Assembly (NCBI GenBank): GCA_938743325.2
Contig: OW568877.1
Location: 496,001 to 560,000 of the forward strand
Length of the DNA stretch: 64,000 nucleotides
Direction: 5' to 3'
From: Pycnococcus provasolii
Lineage: Eukaryota; Chlorophyta; Pseudoscourfieldiophyceae; Pseudoscourfieldiales; Pycnococcaceae
Shown here: positions 30,268 through 44,194 of the stretch, in pieces
Numbering within the stretch: the first letter of the stretch is position 1
Layout of the letters: every line of letters starts with the position of its first letter
Program-made: the position numbers and the translations under genes
The notes under the pieces: model-generated
Told to the model about the DNA's origin: nothing
What the model saw: only the letters and a program-made list of their open reading frames with translations
Databases searched by the model: none

Positions 30268-30335
30268 ACAAAGAACATACAACTAATACAACAACCAAAA
30301 GTGTCACAAACCAAAACCAAAACCAAAGATATGTA

Positions 30336-30437
30336 GTATCCTGGAAAGAACTGCTCGCCCACCCGATAACTTCACCGTTTCGGGGTTGTTTTGGACGCCG
30401 TTTGTTCTCCACGGAACCTATGGTAGGCCTCATTTGG
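30336..30437 (+). repeat. left terminal inverted repeat of the mariner-type element
   Basis: 102 bp matching the reverse complement of 44091-44192 by eye without a mismatch; preceded by TA. Confidence 0.92.
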
Positions 30438-30697: not shown

Positions 30698-32053
30698 GCG
30701 AAGAAAACAAGTTGCCAGGTCCTGCTCAGTCTTACTGGGACTTACGCCATGCGTGCGTCAAAGTCATGAACCGGCTATCGCGCGATCCTAAGCGAGCACC
30801 GCTTGAAAAAGTGGATGCAGGATCGCGCGTGAACGCGCCGACGCCATTGTGGATGGTAACAAAAGTTATTCAAGAAAGGAAGAGTAACCCAGAGTTAAAT
30901 CAACGAGAACTTTCAGATAAGGTTGGTCTTCCACGCACAACAGTTCGGGGCATTCTCCAACAAGAACAAGATGGTGGCGCCCTGCGCATCCGCACGTCCT
31001 TCGGTGAAGATGGCCGTGAGAGGATCCTGACGGTGGAGCAAGAGAAGTTGTTGTTGGAAGTTGCGGACGGTGCTCCGTACATTCCTGATGTTAAGCTTGT
31101 GCCTATGGCGCAAGCGAAGGACAACGCCTTTCCCGACTTGTCTAGGCGAACTCTGTACAACTATTTGTACGTGTACTGCACACCTCCGTTTGTGATCAAG
31201 CAGACGGACGGAACAACACTAGAAAAAAACCACGTTCGCGTGTTCGACATGCACCTCGGGTACGTCGAGGGTTTTGTGAAGTGGCGCAAGTCGAATGGCG
31301 ACGTCCTTATCTTCTACTTGGATGAGTTTCCTATCGCTGTTCCGTGGTGGCCGACGCACGGCAGGACGAGGAGAGGGACAACATTGCACGCAGACGCGGC
31401 GTACCGTACGACAAAGCATTCCGCGATCATGTGTGTGGGAGAGCAACACCGCATTCTTAAAGCTTTCCTTTACAAAACCGCCGTCAACGACGACAAGTAC
31501 GTGGACTTCATGTTGAAAAATCAGGCCACGGATGATGCCTGCCCGTCCTTTGGTGGCGAGGCACTCGTGACGAGGCTCAAGAAAATCGCCGATGAAACAA
31601 AACAACGCGTACTCCTGCTCGTGGACCGGCTAGGCACGTCCGGCACGAAGCACTACCCGGACAAGCAGCACTTCAACCGAAAGGTGAAGACGTCGTTTTC
31701 GCGGGATAATGGCCTCGGGTACGCGCACCTGCCAGTGAAAGGCTATCTGTTCGACCCCATCGAGCCGGCGAACGGCTTGATCCAGCGCTTCGTTGAGACG
31801 AAGTGGTTTTCAGAGACGCCACGAACGACGTCGTGGGGGCACGTCGTGCCAGGCCCGGCAGACTTTGCCGAAGCCGTTGCGGCTTTCAAAGCCGCAATCT
31901 GCGACACGAACGACCAGGGAAAAAAAAACCCGTTCCCTGGATTTTATCGGTGGCGTCAGTTCAGTTTGGCGGCAAAGAAGGTGTGGGAAAAGAACGCGCA
32001 CGCGCAAAAGGCAATCGCAGACCGCAAAAAAACACCAAAGGCACAGAGGTGGA
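30646..32053 (+). pseudogene. mariner-type transposase, 5' part (split by LTR-element insertion)
   Basis: From ATG 30646 a Gly run (GGC repeat) is followed by an N-terminal helix-turn-helix region (LNQRELSDKVGLPRTTVRGI) and the DDE/D catalytic core. The core reads LIFYLDEFPIAVPWWP for the first Asp, VLLLVDRLGTSGTKHYPD for the second, and DPIEPANGLIQRFVE for the third acid region. This order fits the IS630-Tc1-mariner superfamily, though the second motif (VDRLGT) is unlike the usual DNxxxH. The catalytic part is complete in this piece. The native frame ends at 32053, where the inserted element begins; the predicted frame reads on into the LTR to a stop at 32118. The remainder lies at 43635-44078. 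Confidence 0.85.
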
Positions 32054-32220
32054 TGTCGCGCGGCATGGCGGTGTGGTGGCGCAGTGGTGCGGTGGTGAGT
32101 GGTGTGTGTGTGGAATAAGTGCCTCCAACCTTCTAGAGTTGGTGAGGGTTTGGGCCCCCTCAAGATAAATATGGGTGAGTGTGGATGATTCGGGGATACG
32201 TTATCAGGATGACGTATCAG

Positions 32221-32252
32221 CAAGAAAATCCACATTAATGTGGATTTTCTTG
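32221..32252. repeat. perfect 32-bp palindrome in the LTR
   Basis: Centred on CATTAATG with arms CAAGAAAATCCA; the 3' LTR copy is at 43109-43140. It could form a hairpin in the transcript or bind a dimeric factor. Confidence 0.9.
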
Positions 32253-32265
32253 GTCCCCGTGAAGT

Positions 32266-32301
32266 GCGGACAAAAATGACATTAATGTCATTTTTGTCCG
32301 C
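32266..32301. repeat. perfect 36-bp palindrome in the LTR
   Basis: Arms GCGGACAAAAATGA around ATTAAT, again with a CATTAATG centre. The 3' LTR copy is at 43154-43189. Flanking GTCCCCGTGAA and TTCATGGGGAC extend the pairing outward with one mismatch. Confidence 0.9.
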
Positions 32302-32719
32302 TGTTCATGGGGACTTGCAAGGTCACGTGATGTGGACAGGTGAGGTGCCCCGAGTGGAGGTTGCCCGTTGCAAGGCGGCCCCGTGTGGAGGTTGCCTATT
32401 GCAAGGTGGCCCCACGGTTGTGTGTGGTGGGCTGTGGTTGTATGGGTTTCCCTGCTGCCATTGTCAACGCGTTTTTGTGTACGCACGAGTGGCGTACGCT
32501 TGTTGACCGGTGAAGAGAGAGAGAGAGAGAGAGTTTTAAGTGTAACTTGGCTCCGGCCTTGTGGAGTTAGGGTGGTAAAACAACTAGGGTTGTCCGTTGT
32601 CGCCTGGTCGAGCCTCGTGGGCTCGCCTGGGGTGGTGGTGGTGGCGCTGGTGGTGTGGAGGGAGATTGTGAGTAGTGTGTGACGTGAGTTAGTTACATTT
32701 CTTTTTACACAAAAACGTG

Positions 32720-32871
32720 GACAACGACCGCAGCAGCAGCAGGAGAGGAGGAGGATCCCAAAGGGACCGGACCACGACCGCAGCAGCAGCAGCAGGAGAG
32801 GAATCCCAAAGGGACAACGATCGCAGCAGCAGCAGCAGCAGCAGGAGAGGAATCCCAAAGGGACAACGATC

Positions 32872-32902
<31 letters not shown>

Positions 32903-32926
32903 GAGGATCCCAAAGGGACCACGATC

Positions 32927-32961
<35 letters not shown>

Positions 32962-33030
32962 GGAATCCCAAAGGGACAACGATCGCAGCAGCAGCAGCAG
33001 CAGGAGGAGGATCCCAAAGGGACAACGATC

Positions 33031-33061
<31 letters not shown>

Positions 33062-33085
33062 GAGGATCCCAAAGGGACCACGATC

Positions 33086-33117
<32 letters not shown>

Positions 33118-33140
33118 GGAATCCCAAAGGGACCACGATC

Positions 33141-33193
<53 letters not shown>

Positions 33194-33310
33194 GGAATCC
33201 CAAAGGGACCACGATCGCAGCAGCAGCAGCAGCAGCAGCAGGAGAGGAATCCCAAAGGGACAACGATCGCAGCAGCAGCAGCAGCAGCAGGAGAATCCCA
33301 CACGACCACA
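32720..33310. repeat. compound minisatellite: (CAG)n plus ~27-bp spacer, about 11 units
   Basis: Each unit is a CAG run of 4 to about 17 triplets followed by GAGAGGAATCCCAAAGGGAC and ACGATCG, with a GAGGAGGATCCC variant. The array occupies the leader between the 5' LTR and the Gag gene. Because no unit contains a stop in several frames, long spurious reading frames of Gln/Ser/Ala or Leu/Cys appear on both strands. Confidence 0.92.
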
Positions 33311-33342
33311 ACGACAGCAGTCAGCAGTTGGCGCGCACGCGC

Positions 33343-33765: not shown

Positions 33766-33951
33766 CAGGGAGCGGGCCGAGTTGGTTTCCAAAAAGGAAC
33801 TGACAGGTGGCCCCGGGATCCTCAGATCCACGTGTGAGATCACCAGTTGGGGAGGCAGAAAGTAGGTTCCCCACGGCCTAAGGCTGCGGCTTACGCATAG
33901 TAGGTCAGCGCCAGGCGAGGATCACGGCCCACACTCGGAGGATCCCAGTGC

Positions 33952-36462
33952 ATGCTCACGAGATCACAACGTCGTCAAAGACAGATCTCCAACGAGCAAG
34001 AGGGACGCGACGTCACTGACGAGGCACCAAGCGTAGACGGCGAGGGTACCGAAGAGCCGACAGCGATGAGCGACGGTGGAGATGCAAACGCGAGCGGTAG
34101 CAGGTCGTCGCACCTGAGTCCGCTCACGGGATCCGAGACATCGGAGGAGGCGGCGAGGTGGTTGGCCAACTTCCAACAGTTGTATCAACCGAAGTTGCAT
34201 AACGCCAATTACCAAACGGTGTTGACGTTCTTGGTGGCGAACACGGCTCAAGGCACGCCGGCGTGGACACTACTGCAGGACACGCAGCACGACGCCGATT
34301 GGCTCAAGAAAGCGCTTGCCGCCAGCAAGGATGCCGAGACGGGAAGCGAGAGACAGGCAGTGGCGAAAGCGGCGGCGGAGCTGTTCACTAAATGGGACGG
34401 CGCCGTACGTAAAGAATTTGTTACTAAGCGTAACAAGTTAGAGAGTTCCCAACTTCACACGATTAAGGTGAGTGGGAAGAAGGACCGCCCTGAACACATG
34501 GCCAAGTTGATGGAGCAGGAGGTCGAACGCGTCGCGCCGGAGTACAACATGGAGCAACTCCAGCGTGTCGTGGTAGACGCGTACACTAAGCATTCAGAGC
34601 TTCACCAGTACCTCCGGGAGTGGGTGAAGAGCTCCGAAGGGATGGAGGCCGTCTCGACACACGACGAGGCGCATTCAGACATGTCCGACGTAACACTCCA
34701 ACCAGAGGAGGTGCAGGACTTGCTCACAGAGAATGCGCGGCGAGTTAAGGCGGAAGGTGAACACCCTGAGCTGTTTGCCATGGCGACACGTACGCGCCGG
34801 CTCACAACGCGACAGGGCATAGCCATTGGGTTAATAAGGGCCATCTCCAAGCAGGCCCAGATCAAGTGGAACAGGCTCAACCGAAGTGAAGCTGCCGTAG
34901 GTGGCGCTCGTCGCGAGGAGGTGAACATCACGCCATACCAATTGGTGAAACAACTCCAGTCGCTCGTGAAACCAAAGTTTGGCGACACGGCGTGGGAAAA
35001 CGCAACGTGCGAACTACATCCAGAGGGCAAGCACACCAATGGTAATTGTTCCGTCCACAAGCAAGTGCACGCCATGTCACAGACTACGCGGCGGAACAGG
35101 GTAGCGGCGGTGGCAGAAATTGACACGGCAGCGGTGGCCGCGCCAGTCGGAGGTGGGAGGTGGAACCCGAACGCAGCCACGGGGCGCGTAGGGGGAGGTG
35201 CTCAGCCCACAGGTCAAGTGCCAAGACCAGGTGATTGGGAATGTGGAGTCATAGGGTGCCGAGCCAAAGGCAACCGAGCGAATTTCGCGTCAAAGACTCA
35301 ATGTTACATGTGTAACACTCCCAAGGACAAAGCTATGTCAGGAGGGCTCATGCTCGACACTGAGGGCAAGGTTGTCCCGGTCGGAAGCAAGCCTGGCATT
35401 GCCGCCACGGCGTCTGCGGAAGAGGGACGCAAGCAACGTATCGATGCGGCGGTGGCAGCCGCATTGGCTGAGAGGGACGAAGAAGCGGCGGTGGCGGCAG
35501 CCGTTGCCGCGGCGTTAGCTGACGCCGACTTGCAAGGTCACCAGGGTGGCACGCAAGGTAGGAAGACGGCTAGCGTGTGCGTGTCAGGTGGGCACGACGA
35601 GCCTATGATCAGCACGGCGGCCGCAGCGGACTCCCGAGTCAACGCGCAGCCGTTACCTGAATCATTCCTCACGCGAGGAGAGAAGCCAGCGCAGAGCCAA
35701 CCAATAGTGAAGGAATTGGCAGCGGTGCGTGCGCATGGCGTACGTGCAGTGGTGAGCTTACAACTCCACAGCGAGGTGGTGGGCGTAGATGAGGCGTCAG
35801 TGGGTGCACTCGCAACGAAAGAGTTACCCACAGAGACACCGGAGGCGCCGGAGACGAATGCCAAGGTAATGGCGGCTGCAGAATTGGTGCGCCAAATTGT
35901 CAAGGGCGAAATTAAGGTGCCTCCACACCGTCTCCCTGAGGGCACGGTTGAGTTCCGCCTAGGGAAGGCGGCGGTACGGGCGCGACGTCCGCTGTCCGAT
36001 ACCGGGTGTAACGTGTGGGTTATTACCGCAAGTTTGTGGAAGAAACTTGAAGGCGCGCTTCCACGGGGTGTACCCACTCTGTCCCACGATCTCACCACAG
36101 CGATGGGAGAGGGGAAGGGCGAAGAAGTACCACTCGAGGCGGGCATGACGTGTGCAGTGGCGCCCGGGACGGAGAACGAAACCTGGATGCCATGTTCAGT
36201 GGTGGTGGCGGAGGACAATGCGGTATTTGATTGCCTCATACCCACGTTGTTCCACTACGCCTATAATGCGTACGTGGTACCTGCGAAGGGGGTCATGTAT
36301 TGGAACCCTGACGGTTTGGGCACGACGAGGGTGGCGACGTTGCCGGTGCGAATCAGCAGCCACGCAACTTGCACGGCAGTCGACGAGCCGGAACACAACT
36401 CACAGGATGGCTCGGGAAACGAGGAGCTCGCGCGCCTACTGGTGGATGCGCTGCGAGCGTAA
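33952..36462 (+). CDS. retrotransposon Gag-protease polyprotein
   Basis: 836 aa from ATG 33952. A disordered N terminus is followed by a helical capsid-like region (~60-300). A zinc finger at ~424-455 has the pattern W-E-C-x4-C-x7-N-x6-C-x2-C, which fits the RanBP2 type rather than a CCHC knuckle. Ala-rich helices follow. A retropepsin-like domain sits near the C terminus, with LSDTGCN (~683) as the catalytic Asp motif and a later hydrophobic FDCLIPTLF strand. Such a polyprotein packages the RNA and is processed by its own protease. The frame looks whole. Confidence 0.82.
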   Translation: MLTRSQRRQRQISNEQEGRDVTDEAPSVDGEGTEEPTAMSDGGDANASGSRSSHLSPLTGSETSEEAARWLANFQQLYQPKLHNANYQTVLTFLVANTAQGTPAWTLLQDTQHDADWLKKALAASKDAETGSERQAVAKAAAELFTKWDGAVRKEFVTKRNKLESSQLHTIKVSGKKDRPEHMAKLMEQEVERVAPEYNMEQLQRVVVDAYTKHSELHQYLREWVKSSEGMEAVSTHDEAHSDMSDVTLQPEEVQDLLTENARRVKAEGEHPELFAMATRTRRLTTRQGIAIGLIRAISKQAQIKWNRLNRSEAAVGGARREEVNITPYQLVKQLQSLVKPKFGDTAWENATCELHPEGKHTNGNCSVHKQVHAMSQTTRRNRVAAVAEIDTAAVAAPVGGGRWNPNAATGRVGGGAQPTGQVPRPGDWECGVIGCRAKGNRANFASKTQCYMCNTPKDKAMSGGLMLDTEGKVVPVGSKPGIAATASAEEGRKQRIDAAVAAALAERDEEAAVAAAVAAALADADLQGHQGGTQGRKTASVCVSGGHDEPMISTAAAADSRVNAQPLPESFLTRGEKPAQSQPIVKELAAVRAHGVRAVVSLQLHSEVVGVDEASVGALATKELPTETPEAPETNAKVMAAAELVRQIVKGEIKVPPHRLPEGTVEFRLGKAAVRARRPLSDTGCNVWVITASLWKKLEGALPRGVPTLSHDLTTAMGEGKGEEVPLEAGMTCAVAPGTENETWMPCSVVVAEDNAVFDCLIPTLFHYAYNAYVVPAKGVMYWNPDGLGTTRVATLPVRISSHATCTAVDEPEHNSQDGSGNEELARLLVDALRA

Positions 36463-39400
36463 AGACCTCGCCATCGGCTGAGGGAAGTAGGGAAGGGGGG
36501 AAAACACGAAGGGTTTATGGTTTGAAGAGATGGATAATGTGGCTCGGAGTGCTGTGGGTACTGGCGGTGGCAATGTCCACACCCAGCACGGGCACGTCCG
36601 CAAGTAACGTCAACGAAGACGCGACCACGTGGGCCGAGAGTACAGGTGGAGGCACGTTCGAAGACGAGGCGAGAAGGAATGGCTGGACGCATCCACCGCG
36701 GCGCATCAAGTGGAACAAGTCCCAAGCCAGGAGGATGAAGAAAATGGTGGATACCAAGCACCCGGCACGGCGAGGGTGGATGGCGGGCGCGGTGCTAACC
36801 GTACTGCTCGCGTGGCTCGTGTTGTTTGAAGTCAAGATGTGGCTGGCAACCGTGGTAGCGCTGACGCTAGTTGGAGGAGCTCACGTCAAGCGCCAAGTGT
36901 GGGCAGTTTGCACGGTGACGAGCGAGACAAAAGTCGCGCCAAGGCGCCCAGCACGGCTCATAGACGCAATGACGCCATACGGTGACGTCGGGCTGGAAGA
37001 GAGCGTGGAGACACGAGACGGATGGATGGTTGCGTCACGATTGACTGAGGAGCAAAAGGTGGAATTGTTGGAACTGTTGAACAGGAATAAAGGAGCGTTT
37101 GCGTGGAGCAATGACGACATTCCGGGATACAGTGGGGTTGACGGACCGTTCAAGATAGATGTAACGGACAAGTCAGTTGAAACCCGCCAACGCCAGAGGA
37201 GGTTGAACAAGGCGGAACAAGAGAAGGTGGATGAATGGTACCAAGCGTTTCAGGACGCGGGGTACATTCGGGAATATAAGTTGGGAGAGCACCAGTACGG
37301 GCTCCACGCAATGAACACCACGGTCGCAGCTAAGAAAGATGCGAAGACCGGAGAGTGGACGGATTGTAGGGTGTGTGCGGACTCGAGGAGTGTGAACGCC
37401 ATTACCATACGGGACAGGCGGGGTATGCACCGTGCCGATGACCAGATCGCGCGCCTTTCAGCGGCGAAGTACATCACCGCGGTGGACCTGCGGAAGGGTT
37501 TCAACCAGGTTCCCATGGACCCCGGTAGCATACACCTTACCCAGTTTTGGTGGAAGGGCAAAATCTATGTATGGGAGCGGATGACGTTCGGTTACGTCAA
37601 CGCGGCTGCCAAGTTCCAAACGGTAATGGACCGAGAACTGGCGGTGGCGGGATTGGACAACGAAACCACCTGCTACATAGATGACCTGTGTGTACACCAC
37701 GATGAGTGGAATGACCATTTGAAGGCACTTGAGCGTATGTTCGCCATGTGTAACACCACAGGTTTGAGGTTACACCCAGACAAGAGTAAGTTCGGGTTGG
37801 CGACTGTGGAGTTCCTAGGACACAAGGTGGGTGGGAACGGCGTTACACCAGATGAGGCCAAGGTCAAGGCGATTATAGGTATGGGGAGGCCAGAGAGTGC
37901 CAGTGACTTAAGGTCACAGCTCGGCCTAATCTCCTACTACCGGTCTTTCATCCCTAATGCGTCAGCAATGATTGAAGGAATGAGACCATTGCTCAAGAAA
38001 GGTGCAGTATGGGTGAAGGGTGCGTGGACCGACGAGCACCAAGCCCAGTTGGATGAGTTGAAAGAGAAGTTGGCAACGCCCGGCGTAGGGTTGTTCCACT
38101 TCGACGATGAGCTGGAGACGCACGTCTATACCGACTTTAGTTCGTACGGCATAGCTGCCGTGCTAGCTCAAGTGGGACCAGACGGGAAGGAGAGGCTGTG
38201 CGCGTGTATCTCGCGTAGCCTAAACGTACATGAAGCTAAGTATCCATCGTATTATGGCGAATTGCTCGCTGTGACGTGGGCGTTACGTACGTTTCACCCC
38301 TACATCTGGGGAAGGCATATCAAGTTGATCACGGACCACCAACCTTTAGTTTGGTTGATGGACTCCTCTCAGAAGAAAAATGCACACCACACGAGGTGGG
38401 CATTAATGGTGGAACAATATGACTTGGTGGTCATTCACAGGGCTGGAGCGTCGCATGCTAATGCCGACGTGCCCTCGCGATTCCCCTTGGCAACGGAGGA
38501 AGATAACTCTGGAGCAAGGTTGGATGACGGGGAGGAACGCAACCTGGGCGGACAAGTGAGGCTTGCGACGCCTGAAGAGTATGCCGAGTGGTACACAGCA
38601 GTTGCTCGTAACCCAGGTAACAAGGCAACTCAAAGTGACCTCAATCTTGACGGAGTCCCCGTCACAATTCCCAATCCCAGTCCGGACATGGCGAGTACGG
38701 TAGGGAACGGAAAGGGTGAAGAGGTGGGGCGCGCAGTGGCAGGCGCGTTAATTAAGGGCGAACCTTATGGTGCAGTAGCACCGCTCAGGGTCACCATGCG
38801 CGCGAGCGTGTGCGTGAGCCCCGCTGACAAGGTTAGCCACGAAGTGTGTGCTATGGTCAATGACGCCGTAGAAGATGAGACGGTGGAAACGCCGCTGACG
38901 GAGTGGAGGCGCCGGCTGAAACATGTCGTGCGAGGCGAATTGTTGCCGTCAACGGATCATGTTGGCAACGCAATATGGAGTTCTCCTGTAGTGGTGGTTG
39001 AAGGACCGGGCGTGTGCGGACGAGGCGTTCACGCCGCGTGGCAGTCAGGACTACAAGTGAACATGTGCGTTTCTGTGGAGACGTACCAGCTGAGAGAGCA
39101 GATGCGTGACGAGTACGTGCGCGCAAGGCTTCCACCTGGATGGGTGGCGCAACGCACTGATTCGGGCGTCGAGCAACTGTGGTGCCAAGCGTGGCAAGAC
39201 AATAACGCCAACGTCACGGAACTCGTTGAGCGCACACGGGCGGTGGCCTGTGGCGCCGAAGTGGTGGTGGCTGGTTTGATGGCGGACGAGGCGGAGCTCG
39301 ACGCAGACACTCGGTGGTGGAAGCGAATAGCGAGCGCCAACGCCGCAGTGGTAATCGAGACGCATGCCCGACATGCGAGAGGGAATTGGTGGGATGGTTG

Positions 39401-42400
39401 GATTGAGAGCTGTAACCGGCGCCCTGTAATCACCAACGTTGAACGCATGGACCTCCTTGCGGCTGTCTTAGCCGACGAAGGTGACGCGACGACAAGCGTG
39501 GCAGAGCGAGGCACGTCCGCACACCAAGAAAACAAAGAACCCTCCATGAGGAAAGGTGACGCAACGGCCAGGCAGATGGCTGCGGTTGCGCGCAACGTGG
39601 CTGACGGGATTAGCATGCGAGACATGTTGCAGCTCGCCCGAGAAGTCAGCGAAGCGAGAGATGAATGGGAGAGGAGCACCGGCACCGAAGCACAGCAAGT
39701 GGGGTTGGCCGCAAAACTGTGGTCACGCAACGTCATGCCGTGGCAAGGCAATCGTCCCAATGGAGCGGCGGTGGCGTCTTTAGTCTGCAATTGGGATTGG
39801 TGTCTGAGGAACCCAATGCCTAGCGGCCAAGAAGGAGTTAAGGAGCGGCTGGACAAGAAGGGATTGGGCTACGTGGACGCCAACCCGGAGGTTTCCGCAG
39901 CTCGAAAGTGCATGGCTCGATGGGCGCGCTGTCGAGTGCAAGATGAGGAAGGCAAGGCTATTGCGGCCGTATGCCAGCACGAGAAGCGCAATTTGAGTCA
40001 ACAACCTGTAACCAAAACAAGGTTACCAGGTTGGCCCAAAGAGTTGAGGGATAGGTTCGTCCATGCCATAGATGGTGGCTCAGAACTCTTGGTGCAACAA
40101 TATGAGACGGGCACGGAGTACCGTGTCTTCGTGCCAAGGCGTGAAGAAAACAACGCTGAGGTTGCGGCGGCAATAGCAAGTGAAGTCACCTCCACGGCTG
40201 CAAGCGCAGACCCGTGGGAGGATGAGGAACTCATGCTAGCCATGCGTGAAGGTGGCGCTGGAGCGGTTACCGACGTCGCAAAGCGCAGCCGAGTGGCAAG
40301 GCGCATGAGGTCGTATGCCACTAAACAACGAGACGGCGAGATGGTGCTCTTGTTTGTGCCTGACGGCCGGAGACCAAGAGAAGTGCCTCCGCCAGGCAAG
40401 CGTGAAGAAGTCATTGACTTGTACCACCGTAAGACAGGCCACTTCGGAGTACGGCGTACGTACGAACTGGTCAAGCTACATTATTGGTGGCCCGGCATGT
40501 ATCGCCAAGTGGCTACAGTGGTTGGGAAGTGTGCGGCTTGCGATTTGGCGAAAGCACGGCCGAACCGCAAGGCAGGTGGAACGGAGTTACAATCCTTGCC
40601 AATTCAAGGATTGTTCTTCAGGTGGCATGTTGATTTTGCTGGCCCGTTCAATGAGACTGAACGCGGTAACAAATACATCTTAATCTTCATTGATGCATTC
40701 AGCAAAGAACTTGTCGCGGTCCCCACTCCCGACAGGACGTCCTCTAATGTTGCGTATGCGTTCTTGCAACATGTCTTGAGTCGATACGGTGCTCCAGCCG
40801 TAGTGACGTCGGACAACGGACAAGAGTTCGTGGGAGGAGAGTTTGCGGAATTGTTAAGGGAGGCGTGCATCGACCACCGGACAACGTCACGCAACCATCC
40901 TCAGGCCAATGGCCAAGTGGAGCGTGTGGTACAGACGGTTAAGGAGTCTTTGAAACGTCTTACTGTAGACGCGGAGGAACACCGCGACTGGGACGTCTTG
41001 TTGATGTGGGTGGTACTCGGGTACCGCTGCAGTAAGCAAGCGTCATCGGGTATGAGCCCGTTCGAAGTGGTGTACGGCACGGAGCCCCAGTTGGCCATTG
41101 GTCACGGCGGTGCCTTCGCCGACGAGTTGGTCTATGAAGGAGTGGAGGAAGATGATGCGAAACGAGCGACTGAGACGACGGCCGTCAGCTTGCTCAAACG
41201 TGCGGTGGCCATGAAGAAGATGGTGGCTACCATCGATTCGAATTTGAAGGTGGCGCAACACCGAGATTCGTTACGATACGCACAGCTACGCGACGGTACG
41301 TACTGGCGTAAGCTCAGGAAGTTTGAGGTGGGTGATTTCGTTTATGTGGCGCGAGCTCATGCGAAAGGTTTGGAAGCGAAGGTAATGAGGACGGTGCTCC
41401 GAGTCAAGGAGGCACGCAGTGAAGATGTGTTTGTGTTGGAGGGTCGCGATGGCGCAACCATCGTGGAGCAGGCGGTAAACATGGCGCCGTGCCATTTGCC
41501 TGACCTGGACGGGACCGTTGACGGCACGCTACTCAAGGCTGCGTGGCGGTGCCAAGGGTGCAATGGTGACCGAGAACACAGCAAGATGATTGTGTGTGAC
41601 GGGTGTGGGAAGGCGTGGCACATCTGGTGTGTAACGCCACCACTTAAGGTCGTACCACAGACCACGTGGGTGTGCGAGGCATGCTCAATGCTGGGGTATC
41701 AACCATCCCCAAGCACGTTTGGTGACGGGGCGTATCGTCCACCTCCAACTGTGACCGCGAGGTTGCGAGACGAACGAGGTTTGGCGCTGCATGGGCGACG
41801 CGTAATGAAGGAGTTTGACGTGGGACCTGGTGTGAAGGAGCAACATGAAGGCACGGTGCTCTTCGAGGCTACTGCGCACCCGCCGTACCGATTCCGGATC
41901 AGGTACGACGATGGCGATGAAGAAACGATGTACGAGGCAGAAGTACGCAAGTACTTGCTTCCATCGAGTGGTGAAGTGAACAAAGATAAAAGTGATAATG
42001 TGAAACAAGATACTCGTGTGACAAGACTCAGGTCCACGCGTGGTAGTCACGTGGCAGCTGCATTGGCGTGGAAGAACGAGACAATGTTGTGCAAGTCCAA
42101 AGAGGTCTTACCTTTGATGGACAATGTGGTGTTGGCGAAACTGATGCAAGAGCTCCAGCCCGGATGCTCAGCGCGCACGGTAAGCAATATGGCGAGGGCG
42201 GTGGCGCTTATGCAGACGCCACGAGCGTTGCCTTGCGTCACGACAGTGCCCGGTGCACTCGAACAGCTGTGGGAGCATGTGGCTCTTGATAAATTTGAGT
42301 GGGTGTTGGATCCGTTCGCGGGTACCAAAGCGGTGGCTTCATACCTCAGCGGGCAAGAAGTGCGCGTAGTTAGCAATGACCTGAACCCTGGGCATGGCGC

Positions 42401-42794
42401 AGAGTTGTGCATGAATGCGTGTCAGCCGGTATTTTGGCAACGCATGGCGAAACAAGGTGTCGAGGCAGTAGTATGTAGCCCTTGGTTCGACTGCTTAGAT
42501 TTGGTGGTGCCACTCATGGTGAAGGCAACTGCCAAGGTGGTGTGTGTGCACGTGTCGTACAGCTATTATGCTACGATGCCCCGTGCTCGAGCAAGTATGC
42601 TGAAACAATGGATGGACGAAGGCAGGGTTGCAGTGATTAGCAACTTGCCTAGAGTTGGCCGTCAGCGGCAATGTGCGTGGTTGTGTATATTTGCCTCCGT
42701 GGCTATACGCAAACAATTGGTGAGACGAGAGTCTAGTGAAGTGGGGTGGCTGTTCGTGGCCGACCCAGAAGCGCCAATGGCGTTAGTGATTTGA
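36369..42794 (+). CDS. retrotransposon Pol: RT-RNase H-integrase-PHD-Tudor-like-methyltransferase-like
   Basis: The open frame overlaps the Gag end in a different phase; the first ATG is at 36537. Counting from 36369: two hydrophobic stretches (~57-70 and ~137-175); reverse transcriptase ~250-560 with YIDD at ~435; RNase H ~583-705; a ~650-residue region with no clear family; an HHCC zinc motif ~1352-1400; integrase core ~1418-1560 (HVDFAGP, VTSDNGQEF, NGQVERV); a PHD finger ~1727-1775 (CQGCNGD...CDGCGKAWHIWC...CEAC); a Tudor-like domain ~1800-1865 (GRRVMKEFD...FRIRYDDGDEE), close in pattern to the PTM/DIR17 type; and a class-I methyltransferase-like domain ~1978-2117 (VLDPFAGTKAVASYL, VVSNDLNP, VVCSPWFD). 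The reader domains could steer integration and the last domain might modify DNA; both are inferences. Confidence 0.82.
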   Translation: MHGSRRAGTQLTGWLGKRGARAPTGGCAASVKTSPSAEGSREGGKTRRVYGLKRWIMWLGVLWVLAVAMSTPSTGTSASNVNEDATTWAESTGGGTFEDEARRNGWTHPPRRIKWNKSQARRMKKMVDTKHPARRGWMAGAVLTVLLAWLVLFEVKMWLATVVALTLVGGAHVKRQVWAVCTVTSETKVAPRRPARLIDAMTPYGDVGLEESVETRDGWMVASRLTEEQKVELLELLNRNKGAFAWSNDDIPGYSGVDGPFKIDVTDKSVETRQRQRRLNKAEQEKVDEWYQAFQDAGYIREYKLGEHQYGLHAMNTTVAAKKDAKTGEWTDCRVCADSRSVNAITIRDRRGMHRADDQIARLSAAKYITAVDLRKGFNQVPMDPGSIHLTQFWWKGKIYVWERMTFGYVNAAAKFQTVMDRELAVAGLDNETTCYIDDLCVHHDEWNDHLKALERMFAMCNTTGLRLHPDKSKFGLATVEFLGHKVGGNGVTPDEAKVKAIIGMGRPESASDLRSQLGLISYYRSFIPNASAMIEGMRPLLKKGAVWVKGAWTDEHQAQLDELKEKLATPGVGLFHFDDELETHVYTDFSSYGIAAVLAQVGPDGKERLCACISRSLNVHEAKYPSYYGELLAVTWALRTFHPYIWGRHIKLITDHQPLVWLMDSSQKKNAHHTRWALMVEQYDLVVIHRAGASHANADVPSRFPLATEEDNSGARLDDGEERNLGGQVRLATPEEYAEWYTAVARNPGNKATQSDLNLDGVPVTIPNPSPDMASTVGNGKGEEVGRAVAGALIKGEPYGAVAPLRVTMRASVCVSPADKVSHEVCAMVNDAVEDETVETPLTEWRRRLKHVVRGELLPSTDHVGNAIWSSPVVVVEGPGVCGRGVHAAWQSGLQVNMCVSVETYQLREQMRDEYVRARLPPGWVAQRTDSGVEQLWCQAWQDNNANVTELVERTRAVACGAEVVVAGLMADEAELDADTRWWKRIASANAAVVIETHARHARGNWWDGWIESCNRRPVITNVERMDLLAAVLADEGDATTSVAERGTSAHQENKEPSMRKGDATARQMAAVARNVADGISMRDMLQLAREVSEARDEWERSTGTEAQQVGLAAKLWSRNVMPWQGNRPNGAAVASLVCNWDWCLRNPMPSGQEGVKERLDKKGLGYVDANPEVSAARKCMARWARCRVQDEEGKAIAAVCQHEKRNLSQQPVTKTRLPGWPKELRDRFVHAIDGGSELLVQQYETGTEYRVFVPRREENNAEVAAAIASEVTSTAASADPWEDEELMLAMREGGAGAVTDVAKRSRVARRMRSYATKQRDGEMVLLFVPDGRRPREVPPPGKREEVIDLYHRKTGHFGVRRTYELVKLHYWWPGMYRQVATVVGKCAACDLAKARPNRKAGGTELQSLPIQGLFFRWHVDFAGPFNETERGNKYILIFIDAFSKELVAVPTPDRTSSNVAYAFLQHVLSRYGAPAVVTSDNGQEFVGGEFAELLREACIDHRTTSRNHPQANGQVERVVQTVKESLKRLTVDAEEHRDWDVLLMWVVLGYRCSKQASSGMSPFEVVYGTEPQLAIGHGGAFADELVYEGVEEDDAKRATETTAVSLLKRAVAMKKMVATIDSNLKVAQHRDSLRYAQLRDGTYWRKLRKFEVGDFVYVARAHAKGLEAKVMRTVLRVKEARSEDVFVLEGRDGATIVEQAVNMAPCHLPDLDGTVDGTLLKAAWRCQGCNGDREHSKMIVCDGCGKAWHIWCVTPPLKVVPQTTWVCEACSMLGYQPSPSTFGDGAYRPPPTVTARLRDERGLALHGRRVMKEFDVGPGVKEQHEGTVLFEATAHPPYRFRIRYDDGDEETMYEAEVRKYLLPSSGEVNKDKSDNVKQDTRVTRLRSTRGSHVAAALAWKNETMLCKSKEVLPLMDNVVLAKLMQELQPGCSARTVSNMARAVALMQTPRALPCVTTVPGALEQLWEHVALDKFEWVLDPFAGTKAVASYLSGQEVRVVSNDLNPGHGAELCMNACQPVFWQRMAKQGVEAVVCSPWFDCLDLVVPLMVKATAKVVCVHVSYSYYATMPRARASMLKQWMDEGRVAVISNLPRVGRQRQCAWLCIFASVAIRKQLVRRESSEVGWLFVADPEAPMALVI

Positions 42795-42941
42795 ACAAAT
42801 GTGTGTGGTGAATGCGTACCGTGGCCATACCCTGAGTTGGTTTCGGTTGTGCGCTGATACGGTGTGACATTTCCAGCGATATCACAACCGAGGCGGTGGG
42901 GTCGAAGGTGACGCTGTGACGCGGTAGTGCGTCGTGACAGC
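42795..42941. other. short non-coding tail between Pol and the 3' LTR
   Basis: 147 bp. GAGGCGGTGGGG at about 42890-42901 is the best polypurine-tract candidate. It is followed by the 40-bp copy of the LTR end and GC. No further gene. Confidence 0.5.
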
Positions 42942-43634
42942 TGTCGCGCGGCATGGCGGTGTGGTGGCGCAGTGGTGCGGTGGTGAGTGGTGTGTGTGTG
43001 GAATAAGTGCCTCCAACCTTCTAGAGTTGGTGAGGGTTTGGGCCCCCTCAAGATAAATATGGGTGAGTGTGGATGATTCGGGGATACGTTATCAGGATGA
43101 CGTATCAGCAAGAAAATCCACATTAATGTGGATTTTCTTGGTCCCCGTGAAGTGCGGACAAAAATGACATTAATGTCATTTTTGTCCGCTGTTCATGGGG
43201 ACTTGCAAGGTCACGTGATGTGGACAGGTGAGGTGCCCCGAGTGGAGGTTGCCCGTTGCAAGGCGGCCCCGTGTGGAGGTTGCCTATTGCAAGGTGGCCC
43301 CACGGTTGTGTGTGGTGGGCTGTGGTTGTATGGGTTTCCCTGCTGCCATTGTCAACGCGTTTTTGTGTACGCACGAGTGGCGTACGCTTGTTGACCGGTG
43401 AAGAGAGAGAGAGAGAGAGAGTTTTAAGTGTAACTTGGCTCCGGCCTTGTGGAGTTAGGGTGGTAAAACAACTAGGGTTGTCCGTTGTCGCCTGGTCGAG
43501 CCTCGTGGGCTCGCCTGGGGTGGTGGTGGTGGCGCTGGTGGTGTGGAGGGAGATTGTGAGTAGTGTGTGACGTGAGTTAGTTACATTTCTTTTTGGTCGA
43601 AGGTGACGCTGTGACGCGGTAGTGCGTCGTGACA
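42942..43634 (+). repeat. 3' LTR (693 bp)
   Basis: Starts TGTCGCGCGG and ends GTCGTGACA. The last 40 bp (43595-43634) also occur directly before this LTR (about 42901-42940), separated from it by GC. That junction, LTR end-GC-LTR start, resembles a head-to-tail LTR joint. Confidence 0.82.
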
Positions 43635-44078
43635 TGGACGTGGGATCCAGAACGTGCGTGGGAACACGACTTCCCCTCGCGGTGGGAGGGTCTTCGGGAC
43701 GACGTACCTGAGGAAAGCATGCCGCGCACTGTGCCACCACCGCCACCTCCAGCTGGCGATGTGCCTCCGCCACCACCGTTGCCATCTGAACAAGCTGTGC
43801 CACCGCCGCCACTGCCGCCACCTCCAGGTGTGCCACCGCCGCCGCCGCCACTGCCAGATTCGAAGGGGAAGCGGAAAGTCGAATGGGCGGAACTGCTGGA
43901 GTCTGAGACTGAGTCGGATCAGTCTGATGGGGACTCTGAAGGAAAGGGTCCCGGGCAGACAGGGAATCGGGCCGGTCCCTCTATTTTCACCCGATCAAGG
44001 GGGAGGTCTGATCTAGCCTCGCTCGCCCAGGCCGCCGAGGTTGCGTCTGGCGACGACGTAGTGTTGTACGGTGACTGA
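43635..44078 (+). pseudogene. mariner-type transposase, 3' part (proline-rich tail)
   Basis: Starts at the duplicated TGGA after the LTR element and is in the same reading phase as the 5' part. It encodes a short Trp/charged segment, then Pro-run repeats (PPPPPPAGDVPPPPPLP type), a basic KGKRKVEW motif that could be a nuclear signal, and an acidic Ser/Asp tail ending before the right TIR. A Pro-rich C-terminal tail of this size is unusual for mariner transposases. Confidence 0.75.
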
Positions 44079-44090
44079 TAATTGTTGTAA

Positions 44091-44192
44091 CCAAATGAGG
44101 CCTACCATAGGTTCCGTGGAGAACAAACGGCGTCCAAAACAACCCCGAAACGGTGAAGTTATCGGGTGGGCGAGCAGTTCTTTCCAGGATAC
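44091..44192 (-). repeat. right terminal inverted repeat of the mariner-type element
   Basis: 102 bp, inverted copy of 30336-30437, followed by TA at 44193-44194. Confidence 0.92.
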
Positions 44193-44194
44193 TA

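Follow-up and report, generated by a model that had tools for sequence, protein, structure and literature searches.

The window analysed here is a stretch of 64,000 nucleotides of the prasinophyte Pycnococcus provasolii (assembly GCA_938743325.2, contig OW568877.1, positions 496,001 to 560,000). Between positions 32054 and 43634 it contains a retrotransposon, whose features are listed here in window coordinates.

32050..32053, no strand: left target-site duplication, TGGA, matching 43635-43638
32054..32706, plus strand: A1, the left direct repeat, 653 bp, beginning with TGTC and 100% identical to A2
32719..33327, plus strand: minisatellite array, internal to the left repeat and towards the 5' end, from repeat families and self-BLAST
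33904..36462, plus strand: open reading frame 1 (ORF1), judged gag-like from its position; a retropepsin-like motif, DTG, at 35998
36312..42794, plus strand: pol ORF, 2160 codons from stop to stop, first ATG at 36537
37410..38420, plus strand: reverse transcriptase and RNase H, limits as matched by Pfam, with YIDD at 37674-37685
40386..40901, plus strand: integrase with an H2C2 zinc domain and an rve core, limits as matched by Pfam
41550..41684, plus strand: PHD finger of C4HC3 type, matching PF00628
about 41799..41954, plus strand: Tudor-like barrel, borderline by score, with PPYRFRIRYDDGDEETM at 41880-41930
42216..42719, plus strand: predicted Rossmann methyltransferase domain, from structural model, profile match and motifs
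42900..42939, plus strand: B1, a 40-bp repeat ending in GACA
42936..42945, no strand: palindromic junction GACA-GC-TGTC between B1 and A2
42942..43594, plus strand: A2, the right copy of the 653-bp repeat
43595..43634, plus strand: B2, the second 40-bp repeat and right end of the element (GACA)
43635..43638, no strand: right target-site duplication, TGGA

Judged from its sequence, this is a Gypsy-like retrotransposon, recently active, whose Pol ends in the order integrase, PHD finger, Tudor-like barrel and methyltransferase. The whole reads A1, genes, B1, GC, A2, B2, bracketed by 4-bp target-site duplications. It thus combines a Gypsy-like pol, extended by accessory domains in a new combination, with a split-repeat layout for which a single parallel is known.

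The core of pol is that of a Ty3/Gypsy element. A Pfam scan of the window copy found RVT_1 (E-value 6.7e-22) and RT_RNaseH (E 3e-30), followed by Integrase_H2C2 (E 9.2e-18) and rve (E 1.4e-16), which is the Ty3/Gypsy order with an rve core. The catalytic D, D and E motifs of the integrase start at 40626, 40809 and 40908, the last just past the Pfam span. Short target-site duplications (4 bp in eight of nine copies) and ends of the TG..CA kind, here TGTC..GACA, also agree with this group. Identical long terminal repeats (LTRs) at both ends are missing: the right end is A2 plus B2 in all 18 copies, and the left end is A1 in the nine copies where it was read. The initial annotation had called the element an LTR retrotransposon. 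The Gypsy-type pol bears this out, but the element's flanks are more complex than one LTR at either end, and the initial annotation had overlooked the split repeats, which matter for the mechanism. ORF1 overlaps pol by 151 nt in a different frame and matched no Pfam family above cut-off. The 626 residues between RNase H and integrase (38502-40379) gave no Pfam match either; by eye, VVVVEGPGVCGRGVHAAWQSGL within this stretch could be a second Rossmann-like unit.

The PHD, Tudor-like and methyltransferase domains all lie downstream of integrase and in the same frame as pol. The initial annotation had proposed this trio from the letters alone and had ended it at 42720; the protein in fact ends at 42794. 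The PHD finger scores 37.3 bits in Pfam against a cut-off of 24 (E 2.7e-9), with its C4HC3 zinc ligands in place. Its closest solved structures by sequence are the PHDs of JARID1D, KMT2D, MLL3, WSTF, ATXR5, AIRE and Lid (E down to 1.2e-11), several of which bind the unmodified H3 tail. The finger of the element has no tryptophan two residues ahead of the zinc-binding histidine, the residue that forms the cage in H3K4me3 readers of the ING2/BPTF type. It appears to resemble the type that reads the unmodified H3 tail.

The Tudor-like segment named in the initial annotation is a real and conserved domain, and its assignment to the PTM/DIR17 kind is borderline by score in the window copy: PF21743 (PTM_DIR17_Tudor) reaches 18.5 bits (E 0.0018), under the cut-off of 27.2, and two relatives exceed it, C22 with 27.6 and C18 with 27.3 bits, in each case with adjoining matches of the frame included. 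The small loci L053 and L054 were left out of the PHD-Tudor alignment. A structural model of the PHD-Tudor part gave no Foldseek match at E 0.001 or better. No chromodomain family was among the Pfam matches at E up to 1; the PHD and Tudor-like domains stand in its place. A further Tudor match, beside an integrase fragment on C43, was dropped, as it lies in a separate, non-element frame that looks AP2-like by eye. Elsewhere the genome has 27 non-element places above the PTM/DIR17-type Tudor cut-off, one of them sharing its frame with segments that look AP2-like by eye.

For the last domain, the structural model has the Rossmann methyltransferase fold that had been predicted, and the expected motifs are present: motif I (DPFAGT, 42309-42326), NDLNP (42375-42389) and motif IV (SPWF, 42477-42488). 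Fold, motif I and an acidic motif II agree with a class I amino-methyltransferase. The usual motif IV of this class is [NDS]PP[YFW]. In all 12 members of our alignment A5, which reach as low as 30% identity to the window copy, it differs from this form and reads S[PC]W[FY]. Pfam MethyltransfD12 scores 16.2 bits in the window copy, under the cut-off of 22, and 25.4 in P0010, a relative from Pseudoscourfieldia. Profile comparison matched the domain to phage DNA methyltransferases (probability 97.9, E 4.8e-13, 119 columns) with SPWF aligned to NPPF; the control gave 29.9 over 10 columns. Most of the best structural matches of the model are enzymes that act on adenine N6. In Foldseek alone the TM-scores by query length were 0.30-0.49 among the 50 matches listed.

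No C5-methyltransferase family was among the Pfam matches of the C-terminal 431 residues at E up to 1, scans of viral and genome contigs for a methyltransferase source gave zero confirmed relatives, and a tblastn search of phages with the domain from the window found no match. With P0012 as query, tblastn returned weak Listeria-phage matches alone (E 5e-3, 8 records). Of five proteins compared with NCBIfam, four had no match, and P0017 had two rows far under cut-off. PHROG phrog_799 is a broad model with matches in 10 of 14 control genomes, and therefore supports "methyltransferase" and no particular family.

The structural and profile matches suggest that the last domain is an amino-methyltransferase, most likely acting on adenine N6 in DNA. 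As the best structural matches include METTL5, KsgA, Dim1 and Erm, the domain could instead methylate RNA, placing N6-methyladenosine (m6A) on RNA of the element or host as METTL5 does on rRNA. Fold alone cannot separate the two substrates. Against an RNA substrate, the best sequence-profile link, in comparisons that included no RNA-methyltransferase family, is to phage proteins, many of them annotated as DNA methyltransferases, and the domain sits on Pol next to integrase; we consider an RNA enzyme somewhat improbable. The altered motif IV in every A5 member and the sub-threshold Pfam score of the window copy would also suit a catalytically dead S-adenosylmethionine-fold module kept for nucleic-acid binding or structure. 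Yet none of the 12 members departs from the glycine of motif I, from N-D-x-N-P, or from S and W in motif IV, and selection on the domain is strongly purifying; we regard a dead module as unlikely. We favour an adenine-N6 DNA methyltransferase, which may be catalytic; as the initial annotation had supposed, it may mark or shield the new copy.

Searches of the P. provasolii genome covered 32,333,900 bases in 46 contigs, the window contig being C17. The C-terminal unit matched 57 rows: 18 whole-unit copies at 99-100% identity, 18 more that reach the methyltransferase, and 21 with PHD or Tudor parts only. Of these 21, some are halves belonging to the same relatives and others are probably host PHD genes. 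The pol frame is 2160 codons long in 13 of the 18 copies and 2157, 2127, 1599, 1598 and 1350 codons in the other five. With the integrase part as query, 16 rows were found besides the 18 copies; 12 of them have no C-terminal row nearby, and many are short pieces.

Among 431 codons in the 18 copies (17 distinct), we counted 10 nonsynonymous and 36 synonymous changes where 76% nonsynonymous were expected (binomial p 1e-14). By domain the counts were 4 versus 16 for the methyltransferase (p 1.7e-7), 0 versus 10 for the PHD (p 2e-7) and 2 versus 3 for the Tudor (p 0.09; few changes). These p-values are approximate, since the copies share ancestry. Between families, the window copy and L020 differ with a nonsynonymous proportion (pN) of 0.205 and a synonymous proportion (pS) of 0.782. 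Four close pairs are less constrained (ratios 0.88, 0.50, 0.48 and 0.30, from few changes), which may reflect dead copies, and the 15-codon linker between Tudor and methyltransferase has a ratio of 1.24. The C-terminal unit appears to be under strong purifying selection. A 2160-codon open frame would arise by chance with a probability of about 1.6e-36 by a mononucleotide estimate; this length, the 18 near-identical copies and the excess of synonymous changes argue that the unit is not a chance frame.

The combination is also found outside this family, and the refuting condition set in the initial annotation, that all related elements lack the three domains, did not hold. In the relatives C22, with its integrase included, and C24, a single open frame spans all three domains. 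P0010 of Pseudoscourfieldia marina has the PHD and methyltransferase above Pfam cut-off and a weak Tudor match. In C18 the frame stops within the methyltransferase and the PHD is degenerate. A metagenome protein, P0013, has the PHD and methyltransferase at 29% identity over 395 columns; its middle part shows no clear alignment to Tudor. The protein searches, three in number, yielded 1, 6 and 17 proteins (the profile search from the best 7999 candidates scored), and all those with a named source come from Pycnococcus or Pseudoscourfieldia.

The ends of the element are as unusual as its Pol. Its split direct repeats are those that define DIRS/PAT and Ngaro elements, and their right-hand part is present in relatives too. 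The order B1-GC-A2-B2 closes all 18 copies. The left end could be read in nine, eight of which have a perfect 4-bp duplication directly outside A1 and B2 (CAGG, AAAA, TGGA, TCAT, AAGG, GTTT, ACGC and ACAC). The ninth, L009, has no matching duplication (GGAA versus GCAA) and lies about 440 bp from a contig end, beside simple repeats (C17 near 728,107, L038). A Pfam scan covering ORF1 and, in three pieces, pol showed rve but no tyrosine recombinase at E up to 1, and we rejected a tyrosine-recombinase element for lack of such a domain.

The two B repeats change together. In L002, L008, L014, L015 and L016, B1 and B2 of one copy carry the same departures from the common B, and in L018 both have an altered start without being quite identical. 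In every cycle, therefore, B2 would be copied anew from B1, or a single source would renew both. The nucleotides at the A2/B2 joint vary among copies and differ from the end of A1 in 4 of the 11 copies with both read (L007, L012, L014 and L018). In a sister family, whose A and B sequences are unrelated to these, all three copies have the same right end; they diverge straight after B2, and the joint varies by 0-2 nt.

By script, GACA-GC-TGTC with B repeated downstream was found at 10 of 17 relative loci. The pattern required GACA and TGTC or close forms and left the spacer free; every counted spacer was GC. Of these ten loci, L023 and L026 are one place and L021 is a window-family fragment. The count leaves out an opposite-strand match in L022, and a second match in L029 bears the B of L027/L028. 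Sorted by B sequence they fall into six families, which differ in A and B: L022/L023/L025, L024, L027/L028, L029, L030 and the window family itself. For the five other than the window family the evidence covers right-hand ends. The motif was not found in L019, L020 and L048-L052; which of these reach their right end was not checked.

A plain LTR element might have gained 40 bp at its right end by recombination and then spread, and the 18 window-family copies could indeed all derive from one such copy. Such an accident is hard to reconcile with a layout and a GACA-GC-TGTC junction common to six families of differing A and B, with B repeats that change in concert, or with 4-bp duplications outside B2, which imply that integrase used that end. 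We regard it as highly improbable.

We propose instead a circle-type integration. Reverse transcription would yield a molecule whose repeats read B-GC-A, and its ends would become joined; such joining would account for the variable A/B joint. Integrase would then open the palindrome GACA-GC-TGTC of the downstream repeat, leaving A1-genes-B1-GC-A2-B2 between 4-bp duplications. The PHD and Tudor barrel would hold the pre-integration complex on one class of host nucleosomes, and the methyltransferase would methylate adenine (N6) on the element's own, probably circular, complementary DNA, or on the insertion site. What weighs against this scheme is that a circle has two equal palindromes and the model leaves the use of only one of them (18/18 and 3/3 copies) unexplained. 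The reading as a whole (Gypsy-like element, PHD-Tudor chromatin tether, amino-methyltransferase on DNA and circle-type integration) has, in our judgement, an even chance of being correct. More tentatively, and as a possibility rather than a probability, this group of algal retrotransposons as such may integrate through an rve integrase from circular DNA by opening a pre-joined palindromic end, and carry chromatin readers and an SPW-type adenine methyltransferase that would mark this DNA and set it on selected nucleosomes. A circle as integrase substrate is usually rejected for retroviruses, and the conserved palindromic junction may be a case of a retroviral-type integrase that uses one.

The insertion sites bear weakly on the proposed tether and on the steering of integration put forward in the initial annotation. 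Seven of 18 right flanks (L001, L003, L005, L007, L010, L016 and L018; L016 in a nearby tandem array) lie in repeated DNA, defined by recurrence at ≥90% identity over ≥85 nt, as against 2 of 18 control pieces, all from one 64-kb window and one of the two repeated ones a local tandem array (Fisher p 0.12, not significant; 40 of 83 and 40 of 79 candidates scored). At the right-hand insertion points, the four-base sequences of the 18 copies have no obvious motif in common. The lack of a significant preference would fit a role of PHD and Tudor in particle assembly, or in evading silencing by binding a host silencing factor, rather than in target choice. In chromoviruses the chromodomain lies behind integrase, and the two domains here occupy that same place directly behind integrase, which speaks for the tether; we think assembly or evasion unlikely.

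The window copy itself sits within a frame of at least 563 codons that runs across the empty site. Perfect inverted repeats of 104 bp, beginning and ending with TA, flank the insertion (30334-30437 and 44091-44194); the host is, by eye, a Tc1/mariner-like DNA transposon, for which Pfam gave weak helix-turn-helix matches only. Its right part is present at 11 more genomic places. The right flank of L001 is a repeat that recurs at C27:271251, within the locus of the SCWF-type relative L027, and its translation resembles, by eye, text beside another SCWF-type relative, L049; L001 is thus probably one element inside another. Within the element, the minisatellite has repeat spacings of 46, 49 and 9 nt and is reminiscent of the tandem array inside TOC1, an element of Chlamydomonas. 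Repeat A holds two adjoining perfect palindromes of 32 and 36 bp (43109-43140 and 43154-43189, likewise in A1), which perhaps have a regulatory role.

The complete identity of A1 and A2 in the window copy (653 bp) suggests that the mobile family is young. With reader and writer modules joined to integrase in one polyprotein, it offers a natural test of chromatin choice and self-DNA marking.

The open-access literature, which covers few subscription journals or preprints, yielded no report of a PHD-Tudor-methyltransferase unit behind integrase, in keeping with the initial annotation's view that the combination is little or not described. Known accessory domains of LTR elements include chromodomains and an exonuclease (PMC6338049). 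Chromoviruses likewise carry a chromatin-reader module on a retrotransposon polyprotein (PMC2864245, PMC3350952), but theirs is a chromodomain and that of the Pycnococcus element a PHD and Tudor with a methyltransferase. PHDs are described in ORF1 proteins of long interspersed nuclear elements (PMC4120745), and Ginger1-9_HM, the single such Ginger1 family listed, has a PHD with Ulp1 behind a Gypsy-type integrase (PMC2836005). Ginger1 thus shares a Gypsy-type integrase with C-terminal additions, but is a DNA transposon with inverted repeats, and the available text mentions no Tudor or methyltransferase (PMC2836005). Small phage DNA methyltransferases (such as Listeria phage LMSP-25 gp046 and Rhizobium phage 16-3 p096) share profile homology that extends over motifs I to IV; they differ in being stand-alone proteins that keep NPP[FY] in seven aligned members.

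In the ends the nearest systems are DIRS/PAT/Toc/Kangaroo and Ngaro, defined by split direct repeats, A1-ORFs-B1A2B2, together with a tyrosine recombinase (PMC4157794, PMC8547959). The Pycnococcus element shares the split repeats and, with the DIRS group, a methyltransferase, noted as Dam-like and adenine-specific in DIRS elements by De Mendoza et al. 2018 (PMC5890265); in place of the tyrosine recombinase it has a DDE integrase of the rve type, and its target duplications are 4 bp long. KnitGypsy-Dnmt3 of Klebsormidium nitens has DIRS-like repeats but Gypsy domains, according to a figure legend, and a methyltransferase in Pol (PMC5890265). Its enzyme is a C5-cytosine Dnmt3, whereas the Pycnococcus element has no C5-methyltransferase match, and the text available contains neither "PHD" nor "chromodomain", Tudor not having been searched there (PMC5890265). 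It is the one precedent found for a DIRS-like layout with an rve integrase. If the more tentative reading of the group as a whole is right, split repeats and a methyltransferase would have been united three times, in DIRS/PAT, in KnitGypsy-Dnmt3 and in the Pycnococcus group, a recurrence that would suggest that circular form and methylation are functionally linked.

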